Origin: Melioribacteraceae bacterium
GTDB taxonomy: Bacteria; Bacteroidota; Ignavibacteria; Ignavibacteriales; Melioribacteraceae
Length of the DNA: 64,000 bases
Direction: 5' to 3'
Assembly: GCA_021739765.1 (NCBI GenBank)
Contig: JAIPBD010000016.1
Span: 47,455-111,454, forward strand
How positions within the stretch are numbered: the first letter of the stretch is position 1; every line of letters begins with the position of its first letter. The notes beneath the pieces are model-generated. The model was given only the letters and a program-made list of their open reading frames with translations, made no database searches and had not been told where the DNA came from. Below, piece by piece: positions 7,642-57,899 of the stretch. A program made the position numbers and the translations under genes.

Positions 7642-7682
7642 CGGCCGATCAGCTAGAAAGGTGCTTGATATCAAGTAAAATG

Positions 7683-7726
7683 AATTCTTGCCAGCTTAGC
7701 GAATATTTGCTGACAAGAATTTTTTT
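7683..7726 (+). terminator. Rho-independent terminator of bipA
   Basis: Arms AATTCTTG-C-CAGC and GCTG-A-CAAGAATT form a 12-bp interrupted stem with a 13-nt loop, followed directly by a run of T (7720-7726). It begins about 40 bp after the bipA stop. Confidence 0.85.
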
Positions 7727-7883
7727 ATGGGTTTTGTATTTCTGATTAAAAGACCCAGTCCCATCGCGATATTTGTTTTTACCAACTGGGTGTGGACCAC
7801 GTATAACCTGAATTCTTTTTCCCGGCTCTACTAATCTTGAGAGTAATATTTTTAACTAATCTCTTTTGTACATTTTACTCAAA

Positions 7884-7907
7884 CAATTGAGTACTATTAC
7901 TCAATTG
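7884..7907 (-). terminator. Perfect hairpin downstream of the DUF2237 gene
   Basis: CAATTGAGTA and TACTCAATTG form a perfect 10-bp stem around CTAT, 28 bp beyond the stop of the minus-strand DUF2237 gene. On the minus strand it is followed by TTTGAGTAAAATG, a weak T-rich tract, so termination is likely but not certain. Confidence 0.55.
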
Positions 7908-7935
7908 AAAGATGAGAATCAATTTCAACACTGAA

Positions 7936-8304
7936 TTATTTGTCTATCCCAAAGTCAACCAGAGTTTCAAGTGGAACCAAATTTAGCATAGATTCATGTG
8001 TCGCTTCAAGATCAATCTTCGGTGCGACCCCATTTTCGTATGCTTCTTTCCAGCGGGAAGCACAAAGACACCATTTGTCTCCGGCTTTTAATCCTTTAAA
8101 GTTGTATTCCGGAATTGGAGTGCTGAGATCATTTCCAACACTTTTTGAGTACTCAAGAAAATCGTCGGATAAATAAACGCAGACCGTGTGTTGCCCAACA
8201 TCCTCCGGACAAGTATCACAATAACCATTTCTAAAATAACCGGTTTTGGGATTGTTGCTGCAAGGTTTTAGATTTCCACCAAGAACATTTTTGGGAACTG
8301 ACAT
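7936..8304 (-). CDS. DUF2237 family protein
   Basis: The 122-residue protein matches DUF2237: NVLGGNLKPCSNNPKTGYFRNGYC at residues 6-29, GQHTVC, FLEYSKSVGNDLSTPIPEY, the GLKAGDKWCLCASRWKEA block and LEATHESMLNLVPLE. Several Cys and His residues are conserved; no function is established. The frame is open further upstream, but family alignment and an AAAGGTG ribosome-binding site support the ATG at 8304. It follows the porin gene by 13 bp and is probably co-transcribed with it. Confidence 0.85.
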   Translation of the reverse strand: MSVPKNVLGGNLKPCSNNPKTGYFRNGYCDTCPEDVGQHTVCVYLSDDFLEYSKSVGNDLSTPIPEYNFKGLKAGDKWCLCASRWKEAYENGVAPKIDLEATHESMLNLVPLETLVDFGIDK

Positions 8305-8317
8305 AAAAACACCTTTC

Positions 8318-9526
8318 TTACAAGTTAACAATTCCCATGAAGTAAAACCATGTTGCTGTATCATTCCCCTTGGTTTCTTTAAAGATTTCACCGGGGAAAA
8401 ACAAACCGCTACCTATTTGGAAATCTACATTTTCGTCATATTTATAGTTTAATACCAAATCAAATTCGTTTCCGAAATTCCGTGAAGTCGAACCATTTAT
8501 CAAAGTATAATCAGCCGATGAATTAAAAATGTGAAACGCGGCTTGCAGCTTCATTTTTTGCAAAGGTGAAAAGTTTGTTTTAAGATGAATATCAGCAAGA
8601 CCTAATCCGTTTGTGTTAGAAGGGAAGAAATCCATATAACCATAATATTTATGTCCGGCGCCAAACCATCTGTTACCTTCTTTGTAAGTATTATCGGTCA
8701 AATTATCATCACCAGAATAATATTCAATCCCCGCAGATAACTGTGGTTTCAAATTATGATTGAAATTAAATCCAAGATTATATCCCACAAAGAAAGCATT
8801 TAGCGACTTTGGACCGTTTTCAATCTCATCGCCTAATTGATACACAAATTCGGCAGTATGAAAATAATTTTCGATGGTTCCATCAAGGTAAGTTCCAATG
8901 GCGAAAGCATTAAATGGATAAGAAGCCGCTGCGGATGTTCGGTAAAGTACGAAAGGCTGAAAATCATGATTGGAAATAAATTTTAAGTCGGCGAAAGCAC
9001 CGATCAAAGTCTCATCATTGAGATCATCAAGCTTTGAAGTCTCGGCAAGTTTAAATGCGAATAAATCGATTTTTGATTTATCATTATTGATTTGCCAGCT
9101 AAAAGTTAAACCGTCAAAACTCCTGCCAATGTTATTCCAATTATTTTTACTCATTATTCTTTGAGTACCGTATGATGCTTCCATTCTTCCAAGTTTTAAG
9201 GAAAGTGGTAAATCAAACAGATTGTCTACGAGAAAATATGCTTGATGCAAATCGAGATTGGCTGTGTTTGAAATCGTAGCCGGTTCTGAACCGAATACTC
9301 TTGAATCCTGAACTTGGAAAAAAGCGGACAAATTCTTTCTTGGTGAAAACTTAACACCGAATCGAGAACGCATTTCACTAAATGAATTCATCCCTGTGGA
9401 CGAATTAAAATCCCTGCCATCTAAAATTAATCTGGTTCTTATTTGACCTGAAAAATTCACTAAATCTTGTGCTTGTATCGTTGCGCCGAAAAGTAGAACA
9501 AACAATAAAATAATACGTGATTTCAC
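8318..9526 (-). CDS. Outer-membrane beta-barrel porin (alginate-export-like)
   Basis: The 402-residue protein has a signal peptide (about residues 1-19, cleaved after IQAQ), then regularly alternating amphipathic strands and a C-terminal strand ending in aromatic/hydrophobic residues (WFYFMGIVNL), typical of outer-membrane barrels. RTRLILDGRDF, LHQAYFLVD and LKLGRMEASYGTQRI resemble the alginate-export/OprD-like barrel group, so solute diffusion is the likely role; the substrate is unknown. The start is GTG at 9526 behind GGAGAGGTG. It diverges from the symporter operon. Confidence 0.7.
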   Translation of the reverse strand: MKSRIILLFVLLFGATIQAQDLVNFSGQIRTRLILDGRDFNSSTGMNSFSEMRSRFGVKFSPRKNLSAFFQVQDSRVFGSEPATISNTANLDLHQAYFLVDNLFDLPLSLKLGRMEASYGTQRIMSKNNWNNIGRSFDGLTFSWQINNDKSKIDLFAFKLAETSKLDDLNDETLIGAFADLKFISNHDFQPFVLYRTSAAASYPFNAFAIGTYLDGTIENYFHTAEFVYQLGDEIENGPKSLNAFFVGYNLGFNFNHNLKPQLSAGIEYYSGDDNLTDNTYKEGNRWFGAGHKYYGYMDFFPSNTNGLGLADIHLKTNFSPLQKMKLQAAFHIFNSSADYTLINGSTSRNFGNEFDLVLNYKYDENVDFQIGSGLFFPGEIFKETKGNDTATWFYFMGIVNL

Positions 9527-45007: not shown

Positions 45008-46216
45008 TTATTCTTCGGCGAATTCTTCAAATCTGTAAAGAGCTTTTAAGCTGAAAATCTGATTTATGGCGATCAGTTCGTTCTCTTTCAATCCATCTTT
45101 TACAACAACGCTTTCGTTATTTATTGATTCGATTTCAATCACTCGTTTTTCGAATTCGGATTCTGAAATTTTAACAAATACGATAGGATTTTCATTTTCG
45201 TATGCTACAGCCGACATTGGCAGCGTAACAATTTCTCGGACTGTTTCTGATTCTATTTCCATCCTTACATTGCTTCCGGGTTTCGGCCAACCATCTTTAG
45301 TTGAGAGAATTACATTCACAACTATCGATTTGTTATTTTCATCAAGCGCGGGATTAATTGAAGCGATTTCACCATTTATATTTTTCGAACGATTTTCATT
45401 CAAAGTGATTTGAATTTTGTCACCGGCTTTTAGCGAAGTTCCATCTTCGGGAGATACAAAACCCCGAATCAATACCTTTTGTGTATTAATAATTGTCGCG
45501 AGTTTATCGTATGCATTTACGGATTCACCAAGATCAATCAGATGCTGGTCGATTATACCGTTTATCGGAGAATATATTTTCAACTTTGTATCGATTGATG
45601 TTTGGAATTCGAGCTGACTAATTAATTCGCTACCGGTACCGACCGCTTTCAGTTTTGAATAAGCCGCGTTTACAGCTGATTTAGCTCTCGAATATTCGGC
45701 TTCCACTTTATCAAGCTCACTCTTTGTCGAAATCTTTTTCTCAACAAGTGAACTGATTCGCTCTTTTGTATTCTTTTGATAATTTTCCTCAGCTTTCGCT
45801 TGCAAATATTCGGCAATTATGTTTCCATACTGAATACTTTCGATCTCCGCGATAATTTCGCCCTTCTTAACTTTTTCCCCTTCGTGAGCATAAATTTCTA
45901 CAATCCTTCCATCGAGTGGAGCGCTGACTACAGCGTAGTTTTCAGGTGCGGGATAAACAAACGCCGGCGCATAAATATTTAAGGATGTTTGCTCAAGATT
46001 TACGCTAACGGTTTTTATCTTTAGCTCATCAACTTGTTTCTGAGTGAGCAGGATTTTGTTAGCTGAAGTTTTCTCCTCTTCATTTATTGAAGGGGGCGAT
46101 TCAAATGATTCTTTGTTCGTATTCATCTGGGATTGATCGTCACCACATGAAATTATTCCAATACTGACAATAGGAATTAAAAGATGTAAAAAAGTTTTTT
46201 GTAATACTGATTTCAT
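45008..46216 (-). CDS. czcB: Heavy-metal RND periplasmic adaptor, CzcB type (lipoprotein)
   Basis: The 402-residue adaptor has a lipoprotein signal peptide (lipobox IISC, lipidated C24). It has a biotinyl-lipoyl-like half (ISAPLDGRIVEIYAHEGEKVKKGEI-type segment near 82-107), a helical hairpin (about 115-190), a second lipoyl half (YSPINGIIDQHL) and beta-barrel domains ending in KALYRFEEFAEE. It links the CzcA pump to the outer-membrane channel. The gene lies 12 bp upstream of czcA and 15 bp after the CzcC-like gene. Confidence 0.9.
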   Translation of the reverse strand: MKSVLQKTFLHLLIPIVSIGIISCGDDQSQMNTNKESFESPPSINEEEKTSANKILLTQKQVDELKIKTVSVNLEQTSLNIYAPAFVYPAPENYAVVSAPLDGRIVEIYAHEGEKVKKGEIIAEIESIQYGNIIAEYLQAKAEENYQKNTKERISSLVEKKISTKSELDKVEAEYSRAKSAVNAAYSKLKAVGTGSELISQLEFQTSIDTKLKIYSPINGIIDQHLIDLGESVNAYDKLATIINTQKVLIRGFVSPEDGTSLKAGDKIQITLNENRSKNINGEIASINPALDENNKSIVVNVILSTKDGWPKPGSNVRMEIESETVREIVTLPMSAVAYENENPIVFVKISESEFEKRVIEIESINNESVVVKDGLKENELIAINQIFSLKALYRFEEFAEE

Positions 46217-46231
46217 AAAATTATCCGGTAA

Positions 46232-47488
46232 TTAATAAACCAATTCTTCGTCGAGATATTTTTCCAATTCAATCAATTGAAAATAGTAGTCGCGCAGTGC
46301 GCTGAAATAGTTATTTCTTGTTCTTAAATACGTTTGCTGAGCAGTAATTAAATCGAACAGACTTATCTCTCCTGCGCTATATCCTTCAGTGGTCAGAGTT
46401 AATAATTCCGATGATTTATTTTGAATATTTTGCTCGAAACGTTTCATATTTTTTAGGCTGGCTTCGTATCCATGCCAAGTTTTTTCGATTACTTCTTTGT
46501 ATCTGAGGTAGATTTCACGTTTTTGGAATTCCAGCTTTTTTACTTCAATACCCGCGATCTCAATTTCGGGTTGTTGGTTAAAGACAAACCAGATCGGGAC
46601 ATTCAATCCAATTTCGAATCCGTTGAAATTGTAAGAACTTCCATAATCCTGCCAGTAATAACGAAATTCAAGATCGGGCAGCAGTGAACTCCACGATGCC
46701 GATTGTTTATAATTTTTCGATTTTTGCTCGGCTTCCATAGCTAAATACTCGGGCTGTAGTTTTATTCTCGAAATCGCTTCTTCTTGATCGATTTCGATGG
46801 CGCGGTAACTGAGGGTGTCGGTAAAATAAGTAGAGTACGACTGCTCCTCGGGGTCCAATCCAATAATTGAAAACAACTCATATCGCGTGTCATGATAATT
46901 TTTGTATGAGTTCTCCAATTCGTTTTCAGCCTCTGATTTTTGAATTTCAGCCCTCAGGAGATCTAATTCCGAGCTTACACCAACTTCGGTTCTGGCTTTA
47001 ACTGCATCATGCAATTTTTGGCTGAGTCTTAGTTGTTCATCCATAAGTTCAATTTTCCGATAGGCATAAACGAGTTTAACATAGCTTCGTTTTACATCTG
47101 CAATTAAAGCTTTTTCTTCGGATTGAATTTTATAACTGATCGCTGTTTCTTCGGAGGAAATCGAATTCAAATTATAAATTGTTTTTAACGGGAAATCCAA
47201 CTTTTGTGAGATTGTCCAACGCCTCTCTGCAAAACTATCTCCGGTTTTATCAATCCCTTCTTTCATATATGAAATATTTGGTGAATAAATCCCAAACGAT
47301 TTGAAATATGATGATTTTGCTAAATTTAGATTTTCGCGAAGAGAGTTCAATCCGGGATTAAATTCAACTGCAGTTTTTACCGCATCGTTAATTGTTAGTA
47401 ACTCACCCTTAAAACTTGGATTATTCTGCTCTTGGGCATAGGCGGCCGTAAAGTGCGAAATTAGAATTAGGATCAATGCTTTTTTCAT
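46232..47488 (-). CDS. czcC: Outer-membrane efflux protein, CzcC/TolC type
   Basis: The 418-residue protein has a signal peptide (1-18, AYAQ) and two OEP repeats of coiled-coil helices and barrel strands. A conserved early GLNSLRENLNLAKSSYF helix is followed by the second-half EISLFDLITAQQTYLRTRNNYFSALRDYY helix (given in part: DLITAQQTYLRTR). It forms the outer-membrane duct of the tripartite CzcCBA pump. It is the first gene of the czc operon; the HK stop lies 164 bp upstream, so a promoter responsive to the adjacent CzcRS-like pair is expected in that gap. Confidence 0.88.
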   Translation of the reverse strand: MKKALILILISHFTAAYAQEQNNPSFKGELLTINDAVKTAVEFNPGLNSLRENLNLAKSSYFKSFGIYSPNISYMKEGIDKTGDSFAERRWTISQKLDFPLKTIYNLNSISSEETAISYKIQSEEKALIADVKRSYVKLVYAYRKIELMDEQLRLSQKLHDAVKARTEVGVSSELDLLRAEIQKSEAENELENSYKNYHDTRYELFSIIGLDPEEQSYSTYFTDTLSYRAIEIDQEEAISRIKLQPEYLAMEAEQKSKNYKQSASWSSLLPDLEFRYYWQDYGSSYNFNGFEIGLNVPIWFVFNQQPEIEIAGIEVKKLEFQKREIYLRYKEVIEKTWHGYEASLKNMKRFEQNIQNKSSELLTLTTEGYSAGEISLFDLITAQQTYLRTRNNYFSALRDYYFQLIELEKYLDEELVY

Positions 47489-47651
47489 TATTTCTTTTTT
47501 TTAATTTGTTAGATACAACGATAAATGAAAGGATTCATACGCGAAAATTTTGTAAATAAATTCAACGATTCAGATAATTTATACAAACCCAAAACTAAGA
47601 TTTTTAGATTATCGATTTATTAAAACCAACTTAAAAATATATTTGAGACAT

Positions 47652-49025
47652 CTATTTGAAATAAATCTTAAAAACTGTTTTGGAATCCCCGGTTGTAGAG
47701 AGGTCGAATTTTATCTTCTGGATATCTAAAAATCTTTTTACAATGGAAAGCCCCAATCCCGCTCCGGAGATATTCGAATTTCTGACGTTTTCTACTCTAT
47801 AGAATCTTTCAAAAACACTCGCTATTTCTTTTTGGGGAATGCTCTCTCCGGAATTAATAATCGAGACTTGCTTTAAATCGGCGTCGACATCAATCAGAAT
47901 TTCGGATGCATTTAAACTGTATTTAATCGCGTTGGCTAATATGTTGTTAAAAGCAATTTCGGTCAGTTCTTGATCAAATTCTGTCTCCAATTCATCAAAC
48001 GAAGTATACACGACATCAATATTTTTATTTAGTAGTAGGGGCTCAAATCGTTGAATCACTCGAGTTAATAAAGAGTTTATGGAAGAGTTTTGCTTTCTAA
48101 CTATTTTTTCAATTGAATCAACACGAGCTAACAGGAGAAGTTGATCGACAAGAATAGTAATCTTATTCACTTCCTCAAGCAGTTGGGGCAGTTTATCTTC
48201 GTAATATTCGGTTGTTCGCGGTCGTCTTAAAATTACTTCCAATGTTCCTTTAAGTGCTGTGAGGGGAGTTCTCAACTCATGCGATGCATCAGCAGTAAAT
48301 TGTTTTTCAACCAATAACGCTTTTTGTAATCTATCCAAAAGATCATTTAATGATTCAGTCAGGAAGTAGAGCTCGTCGCGGTGTTTTGGAATTGGCAGCC
48401 TTTTATCCAAATTCTTTTGAGTAACATTTTGAGCCGTTTCAATTATTGTTTTAACGGGTGAAATACTGCTTCCGGCGATTATCTTGCTCAAAACAAACGC
48501 GATTAAAAGCGAGAACGGAAAAATGATTATAAGTGTGATTCGTAAATTCTTAAGCAGTTGTTCAATCTCATTCCGTGAAACCGCAACCAATAAATGACCG
48601 ATTATTTTACCCTTGGTGTTTGTAATTTGCTTTTGTAATTGGCGCACAGGAAACTGAGCGAGGGAGGTTTGGTAGATCTTTCCACTTGTTAGATTTGTCT
48701 GGGGTGTAAGGTAATCTAAACCCAAATTCTCAGACTTCTCGGCGGTAGTAAAGTCCGGATTGAAAATTTGAATAAAAATCGGATTTATCGTGGTTTCGGC
48801 GTGTTCAGCCTCATGCCATTCCTGGTAATTCTTAATTTTTACCGAATCGGCATCAAGATCAAGTCCGGCCTGAATTTCTTCCGACTCGGCGACTAATTTA
48901 GAATCTAAGGACGTAATTAGGGAATTATTAACAATTTTGTAGATGCCGAAAAAGCTAATTGCTAAAATCATTGCTAGAATAATCGTGTAATAAATAGCTA
49001 TACGATTGCGAAGTTTAAGATTCAA
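47652..49025 (-). CDS. Membrane sensor histidine kinase (CusS/CzcS-like)
   Basis: The 457-residue kinase has TM1 (about 9-31), a periplasmic sensor domain (about 32-160), TM2 (about 165-187) and a HAMP domain. HisKA has DASHELRTPLTALKGT (His near 250), and the HATPase domain has NNILANAIKYS, an INSGESIP step and GAGLGLSIVKRFL. The start is set at TTG 49025, which follows AGGAG; an upstream GTG (49052) would overlap the regulator further without a site. It overlaps the OmpR-type regulator by 11 bp. Position next to czcCBA suggests metal sensing. Confidence 0.9.
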   Translation of the reverse strand: MNLKLRNRIAIYYTIILAMILAISFFGIYKIVNNSLITSLDSKLVAESEEIQAGLDLDADSVKIKNYQEWHEAEHAETTINPIFIQIFNPDFTTAEKSENLGLDYLTPQTNLTSGKIYQTSLAQFPVRQLQKQITNTKGKIIGHLLVAVSRNEIEQLLKNLRITLIIIFPFSLLIAFVLSKIIAGSSISPVKTIIETAQNVTQKNLDKRLPIPKHRDELYFLTESLNDLLDRLQKALLVEKQFTADASHELRTPLTALKGTLEVILRRPRTTEYYEDKLPQLLEEVNKITILVDQLLLLARVDSIEKIVRKQNSSINSLLTRVIQRFEPLLLNKNIDVVYTSFDELETEFDQELTEIAFNNILANAIKYSLNASEILIDVDADLKQVSIINSGESIPQKEIASVFERFYRVENVRNSNISGAGLGLSIVKRFLDIQKIKFDLSTTGDSKTVFKIYFK

Positions 49026-49692
49026 GGTTCTCCTCAGCCAAATATCCCACACCTCTAATTGTTCTAATTTGTTGCTGATTTGCGTTCAAATTTATTTTTT
49101 TTCTTAGGAAGTTGATATAAACATCAATCACAGAAGTATCTGTTTCAAAATTTATATCCCAAACGTATTCAAAAATTCTGTTTCGAGTCGCAACTTTCCC
49201 CTTGTTGAGCACAAGAAATTCAAACAAGTCATATTCCTTTTGAGTCAAATCAATCTGCTTCTCTTTTTGGAAAATTGTCCTGGTGAACGTATCAATTTTG
49301 ATATTGCCCAATGTAAGGAATTGTTCCTGAGGCAATTTATCCCTCAGCTGCACTCTGATTCTCGCGAGTAGCTCCTCGAATGAGAACGGTTTCTTGATAT
49401 AATCGTTCGCGCCGCTTTCCAGACCATGAATTGTATCTTGAACAGTATCCTTTGCGGTAAGGAATATTATTGGAACGGATTTGTCATTTTCCCTAATTCT
49501 TTTAGTTATTTCAATTCCGCTTTTGCCAGGAAGCATCCAATCCAGAAGAATTAACTCATAATTCCGTTCGAGAGCTAATTCAAGGGCATCACTTCCATTC
49601 TCGAACGCGTCAATAGAAAATCCTTCTTCTTCCAATCCTTCTTTTATAAATTTTCGAATGCCGGAATCATCTTCAACAAGCAGTATTTTCAT
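49015..49692 (-). CDS. OmpR-family response regulator (CusR/CzcR-like)
   Basis: The 225-residue regulator has a receiver domain with E7/D8/D9, phospho-acceptor D51 in ELILLDWMLPG, T79 and K101. A winged-helix DNA-binding domain follows (about 130-222), with the typical LTQKEYDLFEFLVLNKGKV and RTIRGVGYL elements. It is most like metal-responsive CusR/CopR/CzcR regulators. It begins 24 bp after the outer-membrane barrel gene of the cytochrome cluster with no visible terminator, so read-through from that cluster is possible. Confidence 0.92.
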   Translation of the reverse strand: MKILLVEDDSGIRKFIKEGLEEEGFSIDAFENGSDALELALERNYELILLDWMLPGKSGIEITKRIRENDKSVPIIFLTAKDTVQDTIHGLESGANDYIKKPFSFEELLARIRVQLRDKLPQEQFLTLGNIKIDTFTRTIFQKEKQIDLTQKEYDLFEFLVLNKGKVATRNRIFEYVWDINFETDTSVIDVYINFLRKKINLNANQQQIRTIRGVGYLAEENLES

Positions 49693-49715: not shown

Positions 49716-51308
49716 TTAAAACCGTTGAGAAAGATTAACATAAATTCGGTTGAAAGTTTTAGTCCGGTCAAATATACCTTCATAATTCATGTTGCAATAT
49801 AAACTTTCAAAAAGTCTAATTGAGGTTTCGAATGATAAAATATCCTGGTTTAATTCAGAATTTACATTTACGAATTTGTAAGCAACATTTTTATAAGAAA
49901 TTCCGACACTCAACAAATTATCGAAAAAGTACTTTCTCAATCTTAAACTCCAGATCAATCCATCCAAATAATTCGATTTTAAAGTATAGAAGGAGAATGA
50001 AGTTGATGAATTTATATATGGAACCCGGCTGTAAGAAATGTTTCCTCCATAATTTTTACTCGGTCGCGGATCGCCCGATAAGAATCTGTAATTAACATTT
50101 CCGGAAATCATTAGTTTATTCAACGGTCGAAGAGTGACGCGAAACTTCAATCCTTGCCTTGTTTCGGCATCAAGTAAACTATCGGCTAAATTTTTGTACG
50201 TCTCATAATAGATTACGTTTTTGCGTGCATCATAGGAAGCCGAAACAGAAACTAATCTAATCGGGGAATAACGGACCGAAAGAAAAATACTTGTAAGATC
50301 AAAAGTATTTTCGACTAATCCTTTTCTCCGTTTATACAAATCAAGTTCGCTCGAAGCAAAAATGGAAGTGTTTTCCAATAAAAAATTGGAGTGCTGTAAA
50401 TAGATAAAACGTCTATCAGTATTAAAATTGTTCGTTTGTTCGAAAATTGCTACTGAACTTTGAGCGGGGCGGCTGTTCAAAGTATCGGTTCTGGCATAAT
50501 ATAATCCGGTTTGAAACATTTTGAAATTGAGACCATAATCAGAAGGGTTCGGTCTGCTTCCGATTATCATTCCAACTTCGTTATTGTCGAAATTGTAATT
50601 GTAACTTATGCCGTCAAAAGCTCCAATGTTATTAACATTCCTGTTAATCATTCGTCCGAAAATTAAATTATGGTTCTCCATATCATACTTAAACGAAAGC
50701 GTGTAAATTTTCAGGGCTTTCCCAAGGTTAGACTTAACATCCTGCCATTGGTAAGTGCTGTAACGAAAAGTGAAATAAGCTTCAGATGAGAAGTTGGAGT
50801 TGGCAATATTTTCCCAATCATACGATAATTTGTATCGCCATCTCTGGGTTGCCCGGATTTTATAATTTGCCATATTTGTGTACGAGGCAATTCCAAACTT
50901 CCCTCTAAATTTAGAATTGGATTCCGTACTTCTAACTTTCTTAAAGTTTGATATTTGGAGTGAGTCTTTTTGGGTAAGTTTAAATTTGGTTTCTAAAACT
51001 GTCTCAACGTCTTCGCTTATTTTAGCGAAAAGCACATCATCAATTTTTAATGTAATTCCTTCGAGAATTTTTCCTGAGCAGGAGCGGGATGATAGATTTT
51101 CGACTACAACTCCGGCTTTCAGCGATGAATTAAATTCCATAAAAAGAGTATCACCTTTACTTATTCCATCAGTCCCATCAAATTTAACATAAACGTTTTG
51201 CGACGAAAGGTAAGAAACGTGTCCCTTTTTCAATGTATGATTAGTTTGCCCGAACATGATAATCGGGCATAATATTAAGAAGAATAGCTTTGAAAAATTC
51301 TTAGTCAT
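49716..51308 (-). CDS. Outer-membrane beta-barrel protein paired with multiheme cytochromes
   Basis: The 530-residue protein has a signal peptide (about 1-20, IMFGQ). A small beta-rich N-terminal domain (about 25-100; KKGHVSYLSSQNVYVKF, ISKGDTLFME, SRSCSGKILEG) looks SH3-like. A long region of alternating amphipathic strands (about 130-530) ends in FNRIYVNLSQRF, a typical outer-membrane barrel C-terminus. The start ATG at 51308 follows GGAGG and overlaps the stop of the 37-heme cytochrome gene by 8 bp. By position it could sheath or anchor a heme conduit as MtrB/PioB-type porins do, but it is shorter and I cannot show homology. Calling it a cytochrome-associated porin is inference. Confidence 0.7.
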   Translation of the reverse strand: MTKNFSKLFFLILCPIIMFGQTNHTLKKGHVSYLSSQNVYVKFDGTDGISKGDTLFMEFNSSLKAGVVVENLSSRSCSGKILEGITLKIDDVLFAKISEDVETVLETKFKLTQKDSLQISNFKKVRSTESNSKFRGKFGIASYTNMANYKIRATQRWRYKLSYDWENIANSNFSSEAYFTFRYSTYQWQDVKSNLGKALKIYTLSFKYDMENHNLIFGRMINRNVNNIGAFDGISYNYNFDNNEVGMIIGSRPNPSDYGLNFKMFQTGLYYARTDTLNSRPAQSSVAIFEQTNNFNTDRRFIYLQHSNFLLENTSIFASSELDLYKRRKGLVENTFDLTSIFLSVRYSPIRLVSVSASYDARKNVIYYETYKNLADSLLDAETRQGLKFRVTLRPLNKLMISGNVNYRFLSGDPRPSKNYGGNISYSRVPYINSSTSFSFYTLKSNYLDGLIWSLRLRKYFFDNLLSVGISYKNVAYKFVNVNSELNQDILSFETSIRLFESLYCNMNYEGIFDRTKTFNRIYVNLSQRF

Positions 51309-54132
51309 CATCACCTCCGGCACCATCTTCCGTTCCATCGGGGTGGCAATCGTAACATGAAGTTGGTGTGTAACTATAATTGTTTACTCCATTGTGCTCA
51401 GAATCCATTTCACTTTTATTGTTATGCTCGTGGCAATCAATACAAGTAAACTGATTATAATCCGTCGCGACATTGTGGCAATCCGAACAATTATTCCATT
51501 CACCGTTATGTTCTCCCGAATATATAGGGAACAATTGTAAATCATGGTCGAATGTTGATGGCTCCCAGGCATTCTGGGAATGGCACGATTCGCAATCTGT
51601 AGAAAATCCCGGATTATGCTGCGGATCAGAGACTGAATTGTAATCTGATGAATGACATCCAAAACAAGTATTAGGAGTGCTGCTATAGTTATTATTGTGG
51701 CAATCGTTGCAGTTATTTGCTATAGCCGTATGCGCACCGATAATTGGGAAAACATCGTTGTGATCGGTGTAAGAGGCCGGTGTCCAGCCCGGATTTGTTG
51801 TATGGCAGCTTTCACAATCTGTTGTCAAACCGGCAGTTTGATGATTAGGGTTACTTGTTGCTTGATAGTCAGCAGAATGGCAATCGTTGCACTCTGATTT
51901 ATTGCTGGTGTAATTTCCCTCATGGCAAGAATTACAGTCTGATGCGATAGTATTATGTGCACCTGTTAAAGAATAAAAATCCGAGTGATTACTCATAATA
52001 GCGGGTGACCAGCCCTGCTGGGTTGTATGGCACTCGTCACACGTTTGTGAAAATGAAAGAGTTTGATGGTTTGGATTAGTTGTGGAAGTATATTCGGAAC
52101 TATGACAACTAACACAATCGGAACTTGTGTTTGTGTAACCGGTGGCGTGGCAATCGTTGCACGAATTTTCCACATGAGCGCCATCAATAGGAAATCCGGT
52201 CGATGCATGGTCGAAAGTTCCCTCTTTTTCTCCGGTAGGATGGCAGGCGTAGCATGAGTTACTTTCATAAGAATATCCGTTTATTCCGGCGTGTTCGGAA
52301 TTCATGTCGGTTTGATTGTGTTCATGACAATCAATGCATGTAAAAACTTGATAACTTGATGGTACATTATGGCAATCCGAACAATTATCCCATTCACCGG
52401 AATGTTTACCAAGATAAATCGGAAAGAATTGGTTATCGTGATCAAAAGTTGATGGCTCCCAGGCATTCGGGTTATGACAATCTTCGCAATTTTGTGAAAA
52501 TCCCGCCGATAAATGCGCCGGATCACCTGTGGAGTTATAATCGGTTTCGTGACAACCAAAGCATGTATTCGGGGTATTATTGTAATCCGTATGGCAGTCA
52601 TTACAATTATTTGCTATTACCGCATGTGCTCCAACAAGCGGATAAACATTGTCGTGATTTGTATATGACGCGGGAGACCATCCCGGTTGCGTTGTATGGC
52701 ATTCGTCACAAGTTTGCGGAAATGAAAGAGCAAGATGATTTGGATCAGTAGTTGAGTTGAAATTTGTTGTATGGCAACTGATACAATCAGAAGATGTATT
52801 TGAAAATCCTGAAGCGTGACAATCCTCGCACGTATTAGCGACGTGCGCTCCTTCAAGCGGGAAACCTGTATTTGAATGATTAAAACTGCTCTCCTCACTT
52901 CCGGTCGGGTGGCAGGAATAACACGCGGTACTTTGATAACTATAACCATTAATTCCGCTATGTTCTGAATTCATTTCATTTTGATTGTGTTCGTGACAAT
53001 CTGTGCAAGTGAAAACTTGGAAATTAGTCGGATTAGTGTGGCAATCCGAACATTTGTCCCATTCTCCCGTATGTTCACCGCTGTAAATTGGGAAATTCTG
53101 ATTGTCATGATCGAACGTTGAAGGTTCCCAAGCATTTTGGCTGTGACACTCCTCGCAATCCTGAGAAAAATTACTTGATAAATGCGAAGGGTCGTTTGTC
53201 GCATTATAGTCTGATTCATGACAACCAAAACATGTGTTTGGAGTTCCTTGGAAACCTTGAGAATGGCAACTGTTGCAATCTTGCGCTATTGCGGCATGAG
53301 CGCCAAGCAATTCATAAAAATCATTATGAGATAAAAACTGAGCCGGACTCCAACCCGGATTTGTTGTATGGCACTGGATACAGTCCGTAGGGAATCCGAG
53401 GGCGATATGATTTAAATCCGTCGTCGTATTATAATCTTGCTCGTGACAAGAAAAACAATCTTGAGATAAGCCGGAATATGTGTCCTGGCTGTGACATGAA
53501 AAACAATCGGAAATATTATGACCGCCGGTTAACGGGAAAAATTCATGCGAAGTGCTTACAAAGCTCCATTCTGTTTCCGTAAGAATGTGGCATTCAACGC
53601 AATCTGTCGAAAATCCGGCTTGTGCATGATTCGGATCGTTTGTTGCTAAGTAATCCTTCCGGTGACAATCAACACACTCAATTCCCACCGTTTGAAATTT
53701 TAGTTCTTGCGAGGAAATATGACAATCTTGGCAATCCGCCGTTAAATGGTTGCCAAGTAAAGGAAATCTGCTTCTTTCATGAAGCGAGTTTATATCGGCG
53801 ACAATCCAAGTATTTGTTTGATGACAATCCTCGCAGTTTATTCCCACACTATTCTGATGAATGTCATTGTGACATGAACTGCATTCTGATTTTGCTTCAG
53901 CGAAAACAAGACTTTCATGGCAAGAAGCGCAATCAACCAACGAATGCATACCGTCAAGTTCAAAACTCGTTTCTGAATGATCGAACTTCATATCGGAGGA
54001 GTTAATTTGCCAACCTTGTGTCGAATGGCAATTAGAACATTCTAGTTCAAAATTTTCACCGTGTGGTGACTGTTGTGCTGCCAAAGTTCCGGCGAGCATA
54101 ATTATAATTAAGATGTGTGACAATCGGCGCAT
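51301..54132 (-). CDS. 37-heme c-type cytochrome with internal repeats
   Basis: The 943-residue exported protein has a signal peptide (1-20, LAAQ). I count 37 CXXCH motifs, about one per 25 residues, spread over the whole chain. A block containing QNAWEPSTFDHD, GEWDxCSDCH, FTCxDCHEHN, CHPTG, TCDECHTTQ and TPNTCFGCH occurs three times (anchors near nt 53125, 52456 and 51562), so the protein grew by internal duplication. The tail is acidic (EDGAGGDDD). It should be a periplasmic or surface heme wire. It overlaps the 20-heme gene by 25 bp and the barrel gene by 8 bp. No catalytic CX2CK or CX15CH heme motif was seen, so a carrier role is likelier than nitrite or sulfite reduction. Confidence 0.9.
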   Translation of the reverse strand: MRRLSHILIIIMLAGTLAAQQSPHGENFELECSNCHSTQGWQINSSDMKFDHSETSFELDGMHSLVDCASCHESLVFAEAKSECSSCHNDIHQNSVGINCEDCHQTNTWIVADINSLHERSRFPLLGNHLTADCQDCHISSQELKFQTVGIECVDCHRKDYLATNDPNHAQAGFSTDCVECHILTETEWSFVSTSHEFFPLTGGHNISDCFSCHSQDTYSGLSQDCFSCHEQDYNTTTDLNHIALGFPTDCIQCHTTNPGWSPAQFLSHNDFYELLGAHAAIAQDCNSCHSQGFQGTPNTCFGCHESDYNATNDPSHLSSNFSQDCEECHSQNAWEPSTFDHDNQNFPIYSGEHTGEWDKCSDCHTNPTNFQVFTCTDCHEHNQNEMNSEHSGINGYSYQSTACYSCHPTGSEESSFNHSNTGFPLEGAHVANTCEDCHASGFSNTSSDCISCHTTNFNSTTDPNHLALSFPQTCDECHTTQPGWSPASYTNHDNVYPLVGAHAVIANNCNDCHTDYNNTPNTCFGCHETDYNSTGDPAHLSAGFSQNCEDCHNPNAWEPSTFDHDNQFFPIYLGKHSGEWDNCSDCHNVPSSYQVFTCIDCHEHNQTDMNSEHAGINGYSYESNSCYACHPTGEKEGTFDHASTGFPIDGAHVENSCNDCHATGYTNTSSDCVSCHSSEYTSTTNPNHQTLSFSQTCDECHTTQQGWSPAIMSNHSDFYSLTGAHNTIASDCNSCHEGNYTSNKSECNDCHSADYQATSNPNHQTAGLTTDCESCHTTNPGWTPASYTDHNDVFPIIGAHTAIANNCNDCHNNNYSSTPNTCFGCHSSDYNSVSDPQHNPGFSTDCESCHSQNAWEPSTFDHDLQLFPIYSGEHNGEWNNCSDCHNVATDYNQFTCIDCHEHNNKSEMDSEHNGVNNYSYTPTSCYDCHPDGTEDGAGGDDD

Positions 54133-55694
54133 TTAAAACTCTCAAATTTAAATTGAATGAAAGTGACCCCTTTCTTCGTAATTGGTTTATGACATGCTTC
54201 GCATTCTAAATTTTGATGTTTGCCATCAAGCTTAAAACTTGTATTATCGTGATTAAACTTCGAAGGTTCCCAATTGTTCGGTGTATGGCATTCCGAACAA
54301 TTAACAAAACTCTCCGCAGTAAACTGACCCTGGTGAATATCTTTATGACAAGTTGCACACTCGGTATTTAATCCTTCAAACTGATGTTTCTCAATTCCAA
54401 AATCGTCGGTAACGTAATGACAATCTCGGCAACTTGTTGTTTTGTGTTTCCCGATTAAATCAAAAGATGTTAAAGAATGATTAAAATCAATGGTTGACCA
54501 GGATTCGGTCGTATGACATTTTTTACATTCACTGTTGCCAAAAAATTTAAAACTGATTGAATTACCATGAACATTTTCGTGACAAGTTTTACATTGGGAT
54601 GATTCAAAAATGAAGACCCAATCTTCATTTTTACGGTGGCAATCGGAACACGGTACCGCAAGGTGACTTTCCAACAGCGGGAAAAGCCCTTCATTATGTT
54701 GCTCAATCGAATAATTGGAGGGAGAAAATCCTTCAACGGTATGGCATTTTTCGCAATCTTGAATTCGTCCGTTTTTAGTCAGTTGACCTTTATGGTAATC
54801 TTCATGACAATCGAAACACAAGTCGTGTTTTGGTCTGGAACTAAGATTTGTTTTATGGCAGTTTGCGCAATTAACGTCGATGTGCTTTCCGAGCAGCGGA
54901 AATCCGGTTAAATTATGATCAAAGGTCGATAAATTGGTACTTTCCCTAAAACTTGCAGTGTTATGGCAGCTTTCGCAATTTGTACCCAATTTCCCTTTGT
55001 GATAATCTTCATGACACGAAATACAGCTTGAGAAAGCAATCCCTTTAAATTTTTGAAAATCTTTTTCTTCAGGATTCTCAAAAGGATGACATTTTTCACA
55101 ATCTACTTTTTGATGCGCTCCGGTTAATTTGAACTGAGATTTTGAATGATCGAATAACGGTGCCGGTCGAAAGCTTTCAGTTCCGTGACAATCCGCGCAA
55201 TTTTCGCCTAAGCTGTTTCTGTGAAAATCATCATGGCAGCTTTTACAATCCTGTTCTAAACCCAGAAACGTATCGTTATCTTTTTTTAGTTCATCATCTA
55301 AAATAAAATCAGCTTTGTGACAATTAGCGCAATCAGTATCAGCGTGTTTCCCCGTAAGTTTATATCCTGTCAAATTATGATCGAAAGCGTCTTTGTCAAA
55401 CCGGATGATCTGAAACTCACGCCCGAAATGTTCACTATGGCATTTGTAACAGTTTTCTTTTTTTACCTCTTCGCTTGAATGATAACCACGATTATTTTCG
55501 ATCAAAGATTTTATTTCCGTATGGCATTCAATACATTTTTGATTCGAAACATCTTTGCCTAAGTCATGGCATTCGGTGCAGTTCGACATCCCTTCAAATT
55601 TCGAATGATATTTCGATAAATCACCCGGTGAAATTTGAGCATACAATGCGGAGGATGTGAAGAAAATAATCAATATAAATTTTAATGTTTTAAT
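54108..55694 (-). CDS. 20-heme c-type cytochrome, predicted ATT start
   Basis: I count 20 CXXCH motifs in about 520 residues, evenly spaced with alternating GKHxxxxCxxCH and HEDYHKG elements, as in cytochrome c3/NrfB-like multiheme wires. The last motif lies three residues before the stop. The conventional start would be TTG 55673, which gives a truncated signal peptide. Seven codons upstream, ATT at 55694 gives MKTLKFILIIFFTSSALYAQ, a complete signal peptide, with GGAGAGG spaced 4 nt before it. No ATG, GTG or TTG occurs between, so I favour ATT. The start overlaps the flavoprotein stop by 13 bp. Confidence 0.88.
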   Translation of the reverse strand: MKTLKFILIIFFTSSALYAQISPGDLSKYHSKFEGMSNCTECHDLGKDVSNQKCIECHTEIKSLIENNRGYHSSEEVKKENCYKCHSEHFGREFQIIRFDKDAFDHNLTGYKLTGKHADTDCANCHKADFILDDELKKDNDTFLGLEQDCKSCHDDFHRNSLGENCADCHGTESFRPAPLFDHSKSQFKLTGAHQKVDCEKCHPFENPEEKDFQKFKGIAFSSCISCHEDYHKGKLGTNCESCHNTASFRESTNLSTFDHNLTGFPLLGKHIDVNCANCHKTNLSSRPKHDLCFDCHEDYHKGQLTKNGRIQDCEKCHTVEGFSPSNYSIEQHNEGLFPLLESHLAVPCSDCHRKNEDWVFIFESSQCKTCHENVHGNSISFKFFGNSECKKCHTTESWSTIDFNHSLTSFDLIGKHKTTSCRDCHYVTDDFGIEKHQFEGLNTECATCHKDIHQGQFTAESFVNCSECHTPNNWEPSKFNHDNTSFKLDGKHQNLECEACHKPITKKGVTFIQFKFESFKCADCHTS

Positions 55695-57013
55695 ACCGCC
55701 TCTCCGAATTTTTTGGTCACTTCGATTCCAATTGATTGCAGAAACTGATTTGGCAATTCACCACCGGCAAATACATAGACCAAATCATTTTCAAGAATTA
55801 GGTTATTTTCATCTCCATCTTTCTTGATAACAACTTCGGTATCAGTAATCTCTTTCACATTTGATTCGAAAAGTACCGAAAGCTCATTATTATCGATCGC
55901 ATTGTTTATCCTTTCTAGATTCCGAGGTTTTATTCTGCTAAAATTGTTTTTCCGATATGAAAGAGTAACTTCGTTTCCCTCTGATGCAAGCAACATTGCT
56001 GATTCGATTGCTGAATCGCCGCCGCCTACTACGAGTACCTTTTTCTCCTTAATTCTTTCAGGTTCCAGTAACCGATACGCTACTTTTTCATAGTTTTCGC
56101 CCGTCACACCTAATTTTCTCGGGGTTCCTCTTCTGCCGATGGCCAGCAAAACTGTTGCCGCGGAATATTTCCCCTTGTTCGTTTCGATATCAAAAATAAC
56201 TTTGCTTTTTGAAATACTGTTTACCTTTTCATTTTCCGAAATTGTAATTTGATTTTTCGAAAGAACATCTCGCCAAAGTTCGAGTAATTCTGTTTTACTC
56301 GTTTCAACCAATTTAACATTCCCGTATAAAGGCAATTCCATGGGAGAGGTCATAACTATTTTGGCTCGTGGGAAAGTAAAAACCGTTCCCCCGAGTGTGT
56401 CTTGCTCAACAGTCTTAAATTTCAGATTGTTCTTTTTTGCGGCTAACGAAGCTCCAATGCCTGCCGGTCCCGCTCCAATTATTAGCAAGTCATAATCAGC
56501 ATTATGGTTTTTAGGTATATTTGAAGTTATACTCGCAATTGCCAAAGTGCCTTGTTCAACAGCATTTTTTATCAAACCCATTCCACCGAGTTCGCCAGCG
56601 ATATAAATTCCGGAAACGTTTGTTTCGTAATTGGGTTTTACATGAGGCAATTCAACTCCGCGTTTCTCGGTTCCCATAACCAAAGTTATTGCTTCCACCG
56701 GACAAGAATGAAAACAAGCACCATGACCGACGCATTGGGAGGCGTTTATGGTTGCTCCTTTTCCTTTCATCCATCCAAGAATATCTTGCTCCGGACAAAC
56801 GGCAATGCACGCTCCGCTTCCGATACATTTGTTCATATCAATTACGGGATGCAATGAGACAGGTTCGTATAATCCGAATTCCTTGGCTTTGTTTATTTTT
56901 TCTTTTACAACCGCGGAAACGTTGTTGATTTTTTTAAAATAAAGGTATAGCACCAACGCGACAATTAAGAAAACGAATAAGTAGATTACCCAGCCTTCGA
57001 AAAGAAATGACAT
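55682..57013 (-). CDS. Membrane-anchored Fe-S / FAD-NAD(P) oxidoreductase
   Basis: The 443-residue protein has an N-terminal TM helix (about 5-26) and a two-cluster ferredoxin-like domain. A thioredoxin-reductase/YpdA-like flavin domain follows, with FAD motif IIGAGPAG near 178-185 and NAD(P) motif VVGGGDSAIESAM near 335. The Fe-S motifs are CIGSGACIAVCP (C63, C69, C73) and CVGHGACFHSCP (C94, C100, C104): the second Cys of each usual CxxCxxC is Ser or His. I recall this variant in related proteins, so it looks like a family trait. ATG 57013 follows AGAGGT, 10 bp after the membrane cytochrome gene. It could pass electrons between NAD(P)H and the heme proteins. Confidence 0.85.
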   Translation of the reverse strand: MSFLFEGWVIYLFVFLIVALVLYLYFKKINNVSAVVKEKINKAKEFGLYEPVSLHPVIDMNKCIGSGACIAVCPEQDILGWMKGKGATINASQCVGHGACFHSCPVEAITLVMGTEKRGVELPHVKPNYETNVSGIYIAGELGGMGLIKNAVEQGTLAIASITSNIPKNHNADYDLLIIGAGPAGIGASLAAKKNNLKFKTVEQDTLGGTVFTFPRAKIVMTSPMELPLYGNVKLVETSKTELLELWRDVLSKNQITISENEKVNSISKSKVIFDIETNKGKYSAATVLLAIGRRGTPRKLGVTGENYEKVAYRLLEPERIKEKKVLVVGGGDSAIESAMLLASEGNEVTLSYRKNNFSRIKPRNLERINNAIDNNELSVLFESNVKEITDTEVVIKKDGDENNLILENDLVYVFAGGELPNQFLQSIGIEVTKKFGEAVLKH

Positions 57014-57023
57014 TTTGTACCTC

Positions 57024-57899
57024 TTAGAATATCCAGGTGTAACCGAAAACGATCGAAACCCCAACATGAATTATCATAATTATCAGCATGATTAGCGCAA
57101 AAGGAAGGTGGGCAACATGCCAATAATTGAATAATTTCTGCATCAGATTCAACATTCCGATTTTTCGGCCCAATGTGTATTTTGTATTAATAAGTTTTGA
57201 TATTGACTTCTTTTCGGTACGACTAACGTTTTTAGATCCGATGTTTGCGATCATCTCTTTTTTGAACGCAACCATTTCTTTTTTATCGGCAATTATTCTT
57301 GTAAAAAAATCTTTAATCCCAATTCCACGATAGTTGCTAATTATTTTATCTAAGTTCAGCTTATTTAATAATGAATCATCGATATCGTACTTAGCACTTA
57401 AAGCTTCGCTTATTTTATTACCTTCTCCAATAAGTTGGCTTATTCCTATTTCATTTCCTTCAATTGTTCTTGGAATCTGCATGTAGATAAAACGGCCGAG
57501 GATTCCGCTTAAAAAAACTGCAACCATGCTCCAAAAACTGATCGCGACAATTCCGCCAAATTTAAATGAGGTATGAAACAGAACCAGAATTGGACCCATT
57601 GTGCATAAAAAGATGTGAAGTTCTAACCAATATTTAAGAACCCCGAGTCGATGAAAAGTTTTTACACGTTTTCTTAACATATAAATGCCGACACCAATTA
57701 CCATAAACAACGAACCGATAATTCCAAATCCATGTCCGTATAGTCCGGAGGGTTTTAGTGTTGTATGTAAATCGTGAAAAACACGTTCAGATAATGGTTG
57801 GGAGTAGTAGGAATATCCCGCGTATGTTATATAAAGAAGAGTTGCAGCGATTATGATTGCGTAAAATGCAATAACGAAATTATGGATTAGTCCTTTCAT
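57024..57899 (-). CDS. b-type-cytochrome-like integral membrane protein
   Basis: The 291-residue protein has about five TM segments (7-29, 55-76, 88-110, 115-138, 262-288) and a cytoplasmic domain (about 140-258). Histidines sit in or near helices at H56, H95, H109, H261, H264 and H278, which could ligate one or two b hemes as in ferric-reductase, cytochrome b561 or NarI-like proteins. I cannot assign a precise family. It heads the cytochrome gene set, 150 bp downstream of the kinase-receiver gene. A quinol or flavoprotein to periplasm electron entry role is inference from context. Confidence 0.7.
   Translation of the reverse strand: MKGLIHNFVIAFYAIIIAATLLYITYAGYSYYSQPLSERVFHDLHTTLKPSGLYGHGFGIIGSLFMVIGVGIYMLRKRVKTFHRLGVLKYWLELHIFLCTMGPILVLFHTSFKFGGIVAISFWSMVAVFLSGILGRFIYMQIPRTIEGNEIGISQLIGEGNKISEALSAKYDIDDSLLNKLNLDKIISNYRGIGIKDFFTRIIADKKEMVAFKKEMIANIGSKNVSRTEKKSISKLINTKYTLGRKIGMLNLMQKLFNYWHVAHLPFALIMLIIMIIHVGVSIVFGYTWIF

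Follow-up and report, generated by a model that had tools for sequence, protein, structure and literature searches.

How would electrons enter a chain of hemes large enough to cross the cell envelope and leave the cell at its far end? The question is raised by a cluster of five genes in the window, a stretch of 64,000 nucleotides from a Melioribacteraceae bacterium (contig JAIPBD010000016.1, positions 47,455 to 111,454). In the list of open reading frames (ORFs) of the window, the five lie on the minus strand from 49716 to 57899, and they are tightly packed, as a preliminary description made from the sequence alone had said: neighbors overlap by 44, 25, and 38 bp, with one 8-bp gap. That description took the cluster for a trans-envelope electron conduit, and this is still the best reading of a function that we infer. 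The cluster is probably a conduit of the PCC3 type, in which a dedicated iron-sulfur (Fe-S) flavoprotein with a membrane anchor links cytosolic NAD(P)H to the inner-membrane end. The genes are:

57024 to 57899, minus strand: inner-membrane protein of PCC3 type, 291 amino acids (aa), five hydrophobic regions, predicted di-heme b.
55682 to 57067, minus strand: N-anchored Fe-S flavoprotein, 461 aa, with ferredoxin motifs and a permuted YpdA/TrxR-like FAD/NAD(P)H domain.
54108 to 55673, minus strand: 20-heme cytochrome c, 521 aa, predicted periplasm-spanning wire, start codon uncertain.
51301 to 54132, minus strand: 37-heme cytochrome c, 943 aa, triheme repeats, predicted outer-surface wire.
49716 to 51338, minus strand: outer-membrane beta-barrel with an N-terminal beta domain, 540 aa, 22 predicted long strands.

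The preliminary description did not recognize this set as a described module. For four parts this must be rejected, since they fit PCC3 as published by He et al. in 2017 (PMC5566968), three of them by profile match. In that account, PCC3 (porin-cytochrome c complex 3) is a putative complex of a porin, an outer cytochrome (median 34 hemes), a periplasmic cytochrome (median 21), and an inner-membrane protein (IMP) of about 300 aa, with about 26 residues per heme. In PCC3 and PCC4 alike, the IMP is a five-helix protein whose third and fifth helices carry WX3HX13H and whose fourth carries SGXXG (PMC5566968). The intramembrane histidines noticed earlier in the window protein indeed come in pairs, WLELH-X13-H (91–109) and WHVAH-X13-H (260–278), on either side of SGILG (131–135), the motif residues being W91-x3-H95-x13-H109, S131-G-x2-G135, and W260-x3-H264-x13-H278. 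H95, H109, S131, G132, G135, W260, H264, and H278 are invariant in 31 IMP rows (window included), and W91 is conserved in at least 90%; in a cross-phylum alignment of 26 rows, H95, H109, G132, G135, W260, H264, and H278 are invariant, and W91 and S131 are at or above 90%. The protein has five hydrophobic regions, the helix count being made by eye from hydropathy peaks, and we expect it to bind two b hemes. A search of the PDB with the IMP profile gave chance matches only, to coiled coils and designed helices (best E 0.25). The ferric reductase domain PF01794 has no match in the window IMP (Pfam, E ≤ 0.01) nor in that of locus L186.

The heme counts given earlier are exact: 20 and 37 CXXCH, 57 in total. 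All cysteines of both cytochromes (40 and 74) lie in such motifs, and 2000 residue shuffles of each protein gave means of 0.24 and 0.49 CXXCH with maxima of 3 and 4, against the 20 and 37 observed. A six-frame scan of the window (open stretches >60 aa) found more than one CXXCH in these two frames only. Histidines beyond CXXCH number 22 in the 20-heme and 41 in the 37-heme protein, enough for bis-His ligation of every heme. The ratio is 26 residues per heme in the smaller protein and 25.5 in the larger, which by heme content fits the PCC3 outer cytochrome, and which has no lipobox cysteine because each of its cysteines belongs to a CXXCH. Both proteins match cytochrome c7/c3 domains in Pfam.

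By profile-profile comparison (hhalign), the window-family IMP matches the PCC3 IMPs of Gallionellaceae (E 1.7e-29), the 20-heme family matches the proteobacterial PCC3 periplasmic cytochrome (E 7e-84, a score inflated by CXXCH periodicity), and the barrel family matches the proteobacterial porin modestly (E 2.8e-7, 93% probability), generic barrel likeness possibly helping. The proteobacterial profiles were built from genome G487 and two other Gallionellaceae, plus the gammaproteobacterial locus L161 for porin and cytochrome. We take G487 to be Sideroxydans lithotrophicus ES-1, because its clusters carry 17/21 and 24/28 CXXCH, as the published descriptions give for Slit_0867–0870 and Slit_1446–1449. 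The window set thus has the IMP motifs, the IMP homology, a periplasmic-type cytochrome, a many-heme second cytochrome, and an adjacent porin, and it shares with PCC3 the residue-to-heme ratio.

The barrel gives no Pfam match at E ≤ 0.01, nor does the IMP. The assignment of the barrel to the outer membrane is supported by a structure model (pLDDT 83.2, pTM 0.64), in which a predicted N-terminal beta domain (35–107) is followed by 22 long strands, counted manually, from residue 143 to the C-terminal Phe. With this model, Foldseek returned ushers and porins of the outer membrane, but the TM-scores were low (0.46 by query length for the best listed). Here the window departs from PCC3, for its barrel has 540 aa and 22 predicted strands, whereas the Gallionellaceae porins (five loci) have 748–862 aa, and PCC3 porins have up to 42 transmembrane regions (PMC5566968). 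A second difference is that PCC3 was described as four genes of Alpha-, Beta-, and Gammaproteobacteria (PMC5566968), whereas the window has a fifth gene inside the operon and a Bacteroidota host. Judged by sequence, the five-gene set is a PCC3 relative forming a new branch, with a predicted function.

Large-cytochrome clusters in such hosts are not in themselves new, as anode-biofilm Ignavibacteria were reported to have cytochromes of 40 and 33 hemes and porin-cytochrome clusters, the porins being sought with Mtr/Omb/Ext models (PMC7399161), and Bacteroidetes to have unassigned PCC types (PMC6344600); as far as these two accounts describe them, the clusters are not termed PCC3 and no flavoprotein is mentioned. 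MtrCAB, MtoAB, and PioAB share the principle of porin plus multiheme cytochrome. These systems use decahemes and a CymA-like quinol dehydrogenase, whereas the 20-heme protein scores far below the cut-off (192.2 bits) of the DmsE decaheme profile TIGR03508, at 40.1 bits, and the 37-heme protein scores 42.3 bits.

What, then, is the fifth protein? The earlier reading of an anchored Fe-S enzyme of NAD(P) type holds: there is a single hydrophobic segment near the N-terminus (26–44), and Pfam recognizes ferredoxin-type motifs and a pyridine-nucleotide flavin domain. A basic stretch follows the hydrophobic segment, so that by the positive-inside rule the enzyme should face the cytosol. Its start is probably Met19 (~57013), near which most relatives begin, and the 44-bp overlap with the IMP gene would then be an effect of the ORF caller. 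The ferredoxin motifs of the window protein are C81-S84-C87-C91 and C112-H115-C118-C122. The second of them, C-x2-H-x2-C-x3-C, has its His in 41 of 41 rows; the second ligand position of the first is Ser in 19, Cys in 17, Thr in 4, and Gly in 1. If the clusters resemble those of 2[4Fe-4S] ferredoxins, three Cys and a His would hold one of them, and three Cys with a variable ligand the other. Arg372 is invariant (41/41) and Arg378 nearly so (40/41), which favors NADPH as the probable substrate.

The flavin domain is closest to YpdA, the bacillithiol disulfide reductase, both by sequence and by the fold of an AlphaFold2 model (pLDDT 90.5, pTM 0.81; PDB 7apr, 7a7b, 7a76). It differs in being joined to an anchored ferredoxin domain and in the order of its parts. 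The segment ETNVSGIYIAGELGG, similar to the FAD motif at the C-terminus of YpdA and thioredoxin reductase (TrxR), precedes the GAGPAG motif (156 versus 198), and an IAGELGG-type motif stands ahead of the FAD motif in 39 of 41 rows (two are not matched). When residues 141–188 are relocated to the end of the flavin domain, the score with the YpdA profile rises from 169.3 to 188.3 bits and coverage from 1–265 to 1–313 of 316; with the TrxR profile the same relocation raises the score from 90.9 to 104.7 bits and coverage from 1–251 to 1–298 of 300. At the sequence level the domain therefore reads as a circular permutation of the YpdA/TrxR order, a judgment made from profiles, since Foldseek aligns sequentially and cannot reveal permutation. 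The curated YpdA cut-off of 339.9 bits is reached neither by the native protein (176.4) nor by the re-permuted one (188.3). An 828-aa paralog elsewhere in the host genome (L104:4855–7341, G000 C4) aligns over residues 140–450, permuted segment included, and carries C-terminal Fer4_5 and dicluster ferredoxin domains.

Thioredoxin reductases are characterized by a redox-active CXXC. None of the 41 flavoprotein rows has a CXXC after the FAD motif, which makes TrxR-like disulfide reduction unlikely. This bears on the possibility that the enzyme is a maturation factor, a TrxR relative keeping the 114 cytochrome cysteines reduced for heme attachment. Such a role would suit its domain family, the cytochrome biogenesis gene that adjoins the module in Emticicia, where a gene with ResB and cytochrome-c-assembly domains precedes it, and the TPR proteins with weak CcmH/CycH-TPR matches found beside some modules. 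It does not suit the missing CXXC, the two Fe-S motifs, or an IMP that in the alignment keeps the His pairs typical of heme b but shows no pair of conserved Cys, and we hold it to be very improbable. The TPR protein, which by eye has an N-terminal hydrophobic segment, adjoins the IMP gene at L107:9399–9989, L089:11236–11829, and L161:9333–9839, and may handle apocytochrome; in the window, no TPR-protein gene lies between the IMP and flavoprotein genes. On the upstream side of the L107 module (6310–8437) are a porin-like barrel with a weak Pfam match and an FMN_bind-domain protein.

Does the flavoprotein belong to the conduit? The five genes are conserved as a set across genomes. The IMP was found in 30 of 59 genomes (the window's own included) at E ≤ 0.001, 28 of them with matches below 1e-60. 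Among 23 of the 27 other genomes with IMP matches below 1e-60 whose surroundings were inspected (L062–L081, L086–L088), the flavoprotein is nearby in 22 and a full-length recognized barrel in 18, four of the remaining loci ending (contig or examined stretch) before the barrel and the fifth, L088, being a remnant; in L078 the IMP and flavoprotein genes are ~15 kb apart. The remnant (G038 C56) has an IMP with internal stops beside a 94-aa barrel fragment and no large cytochrome or flavoprotein within 18 kb. Over 395 genomes of the phylum, the flavoprotein occurs in 39 and the IMP (E ≤ 1e-20) in 40, with an overlap of 39 (Fisher 3e-53, shared ancestry ignored); there is no flavoprotein without an IMP, and the single exception is the genome of the remnant, G038. 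The flavoprotein count refers to hits that include the Fe-S part, 59 of the 98 genomes hit at 1e-30 having been excluded for carrying flavin-domain paralogs only. In G327 the two genes are on separate contigs.

The association extends to Proteobacteria. The flavoprotein family of the window and that of named proteobacterial loci match at E 8e-168, and among 100 Gallionellaceae genomes the IMP is present in 40, after removal from 46 of six genomes with weak or partial matches only, the flavoprotein in 42, and both in 39 (Fisher 5e-23, shared ancestry ignored). Of 43 flavoprotein genes there, 36 have an IMP gene no more than 10 kb away, in every case on the other strand. In locus L186 the flavoprotein gene stands beside the porin gene, convergent and ~40 bp away, just outside the four published PCC3 genes, and this genome has a second copy elsewhere.

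A scan of named genomes covered the best 80 of at least 544 confirmed relatives, a set that leans to close relatives. Of these 80 loci, the IMP is present in 68, a cytochrome of 10 or more hemes in 63, the two together in 59, and a barrel of the window type in 41; nine of the 12 without a nearby IMP are from genomes that have one elsewhere. By record titles, they come from Ignavibacteria, Bacteroidetes (including Arenibacter sp. F20364, L137), Chlorobiota, Kryptoniota, Calditrichota, Neomarinimicrobiota, Acidobacteria, Gemmatimonadota, Nitrospirae, Nitrospinales, Zixiibacteriota, Myxococcales, Deltaproteobacteria, and Alpha-, Beta-, and Gammaproteobacteria, though most of these are metagenome bins, so that individual assignments may be mistaken. 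In Emticicia oligotrophica (DSM 17448), plasmid pEMTOL02 has all five genes arranged as in the window, and its two cytochromes have 23 and 40 hemes. Elsewhere the order differs, and loci L099–L101 and L103 run membrane protein, 20-heme cytochrome, further cytochrome(s), barrel, flavoprotein. Given this arrangement, and the opposite-strand flavoprotein genes of Proteobacteria, the gene order by itself is no evidence for the path from the inner membrane outward that had earlier been read from it. In L146 and L153 the IMP and flavoprotein genes adjoin, with no large cytochrome before the DNA ends 2.8 and 5.7 kb downstream, so that this pair, and not the wires, looks like the tightest unit.

Where would the electrons of the IMP come from? 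He et al. modeled PCC3 as linked to the quinone pool, from the likeness of HX13H to cytochrome b subunits (PMC5566968). The flavoprotein would then only feed or drain that pool, or meet some other cytosolic need. Against such a scheme stand the near-obligate association of the enzyme with the IMP, its anchor, and its own Fe-S relay. A second, unrelated NAD(P)H-FAD-FeS enzyme, moreover, pairs with related membrane proteins: on plasmids of Methylophaga, Acetobacter, and Alteromonas (L083–L085, the last being one of seven Alteromonas hits), an FNR-type NAD(P)H-FAD-2Fe2S reductase lies beside a short IMP and a small downstream gene, which has a cytochrome c7 match in Methylophaga and is annotated as cytochrome c3 in Alteromonas. 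We regard the quinone-linked alternative as unlikely. The plasmid modules lie near metal-transport and cytochrome maturation, copper-resistance, or hydrogenase genes. PCC4 and most other clusters with an IMP likewise have a further redox protein next to it, and the membrane proteins of PCC3 and PCC4 have no significant overall homology (PMC5566968). All these systems share with the window a five-helix protein with His pairs beside another redox protein and cytochromes, and the plasmid modules differ in having an FNR-type 2Fe-2S enzyme, small cytochromes, and no large wires. Together with the tight linkage of IMP and flavoprotein, the FNR-type enzymes and redox proteins beside other IMPs lead us to favor direct feeding by NADPH over a quinone link.

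Under direct feeding, hydride from NAD(P)H, with NADPH favored, would reduce the FAD, and single electrons would pass by way of the ferredoxin domain, with its His-bearing second cluster motif, to the two b hemes of the five-helix IMP, which the flavoprotein would contact directly. They would cross the membrane as in ferric reductases (FRE) and NADPH oxidases (NOX), enter the 20-heme periplasmic wire, pass the barrel, and exit through the 37-heme outer wire to an extracellular acceptor. In FRE and NOX a di-heme-b transmembrane unit is served by an NAD(P)H flavoprotein. The window IMP has a comparable predicted unit with HX13H pairs; it differs in its lack of a Pfam match, in a flavoprotein of another superfamily, and in that its electrons would continue into c-type wires.

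The sequence does not set the direction of flow, and we put outward flow at about an even chance. We choose it because flow from NADPH is downhill, because Fe(II) to NADP+ is uphill, and because expression of PCC3 in ES-1 does not follow Fe(II). The opposite course, uptake of electrons from Fe(II), minerals, electrodes, or partner cells into the wires, with the flavoprotein making NAD(P)H, would require strongly uphill transfer from Fe(II) to NAD(P)+. The first organisms in which PCC3 was noticed were iron oxidizers (PMC5566968), the gene set is present in Gallionellaceae, and the IMP gene of PCC3 copy 2 of Sideroxydans CL21 was reported as significantly up-regulated in cells able to oxidize iron, all of which suits uptake, the last also counting against the outward scheme. 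Reports on ES-1, in turn, describe PCC3 genes as down-regulated on Fe(II) and PCC3 proteins as either little different between magnetite and other samples or for the most part not detected, and many carriers are not titled iron oxidizers. Uptake seems to us quite unlikely.

Several further points weigh against an NADPH-fed conduit. Outward flow from NADPH across the membrane costs membrane potential, and co-occurrence of the flavoprotein and the IMP is not proof of their contact. The plasmid IMPs match weakly (E 4e-8, 6e-9, 7e-4). ES-1, as identified here, has a second flavoprotein gene away from PCC3, and for 17 of 53 Gallionellaceae IMP hits (in 14 genomes, counting pieces cut by contig ends) the nearest 10 kb contain no flavoprotein gene, although 13 of these 14 genomes carry one elsewhere. 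The Gallionellaceae genome G515 has an IMP without a flavoprotein, G443, G456, and G526 have a flavoprotein hit without an IMP, and the flavoprotein genomes of L144, L157, and L163 show no IMP match. In all 10 loci of Alpha-, Beta-, and Gammaproteobacteria that show both genes, the flavoprotein gene is read from the other strand. Because each genome search scored no more than the top candidates per genome (at most 4, 6, 17, or 23, depending on the search), absences are less certain than presences. PCC3 has been called functionally unverified (PMC12442390), and the published PCC3 accounts consulted contain, in the parts that bear on it, no biochemistry of any PCC3.

How far the wires themselves agree with this scheme can be judged from their lengths. 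We paired each cytochrome of 17–25 hemes with the large cytochrome that follows it, leaving out proteins cut by a contig end, duplicates, and loci that have at most one large cytochrome; the main set, from loci below L144 of the window's phylum or with Bacteroidota-type titles, has 53 pairs. The first cytochrome is nearly fixed, with 20 hemes in 37 pairs, 23 in 14, and 19 in 2, whereas the second varies from 10 to 70. In the 37-heme protein the spacing of three hemes is mostly 74–75 residues (range 66–79), and its heme count has the form 3n+1. So have 46 of the 53 second cytochromes (binomial p 1e-15 versus one third, ancestry ignored), or 51 when CX3CH and CX4CH motifs are also counted, and the two exceptions, L079 and L127, look like split genes, the pieces of the latter summing to 31. 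In the remaining loci, a few of the same phylum, 10 of 18 pairs follow the rule, which is clear in the window's group only. A fixed first and a stepwise second length would suit one wire that spans the periplasm and another that lies free outside, and suggest these locations for the two proteins. Among Saprospiraceae, the second cytochrome has 70 hemes in L122 and at least 78 in L138, where the protein meets the end of the locus.

The 20-heme gene has no convincing start. It may begin at a TTG at 55673, which drops the basic n-region of the signal peptide, or at an ATT 21 nt upstream, which restores it. ATT-AAA occurs in 16 of the 60 distinct genes examined at this site, 7 of the 16 having no ATG, GTG, or TTG in the scanned range (~15–32 residues before SPG). 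A conserved AUU start with a Shine-Dalgarno sequence is largely withdrawn, as the conserved DNA is the end of the overlapping flavoprotein gene (FGEAVLKH-stop).

On the barrel-gene side of the cluster (45008–49692), genes for a two-component system come first, followed by those for a protein that by eye resembles an outer-membrane factor and for an efflux protein of CusB/HlyD type. The genome also has two genes of the COX1 family (heme-copper oxidase type) and three further frames with c7-type matches, so the host may also respire oxygen or nitrogen oxides.

The preliminary description had singled out the NAD(P)-linked flavoprotein as unusual. This part of it stands, for the PCC3 descriptions consulted do not name the protein (a supplementary table may), while the other four components are known. 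What appears to be new here is a conserved fifth component that travels with the PCC3 family across distant bacteria, and with it a probable link to NAD(P)H. In a broader form, to which we give somewhat less than an even chance, the PCC3 conduits of ten or more phyla would be direct trans-envelope NADPH dehydrogenases, in which a NOX/FRE-like unit, made up of the permuted Fe-S flavoprotein with its His-bearing cluster motif and the di-heme-b protein, bypasses quinone and drains cytosolic reductant to an outer wire that evolves by gain and loss of trihemes. If an NAD(P)H enzyme does work on heme wires of this great size, their assigned energetics would shift from plain respiration to reductant disposal or redox balancing, and the function of PCC3 would become assayable with NADPH. 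Named carriers, such as Emticicia oligotrophica DSM 17448 and Arenibacter sp. F20364, offer targets for knockouts, and the fixed heme number of the first cytochrome and the stepwise number of the second give a testable rule for which of the two spans the periplasm.

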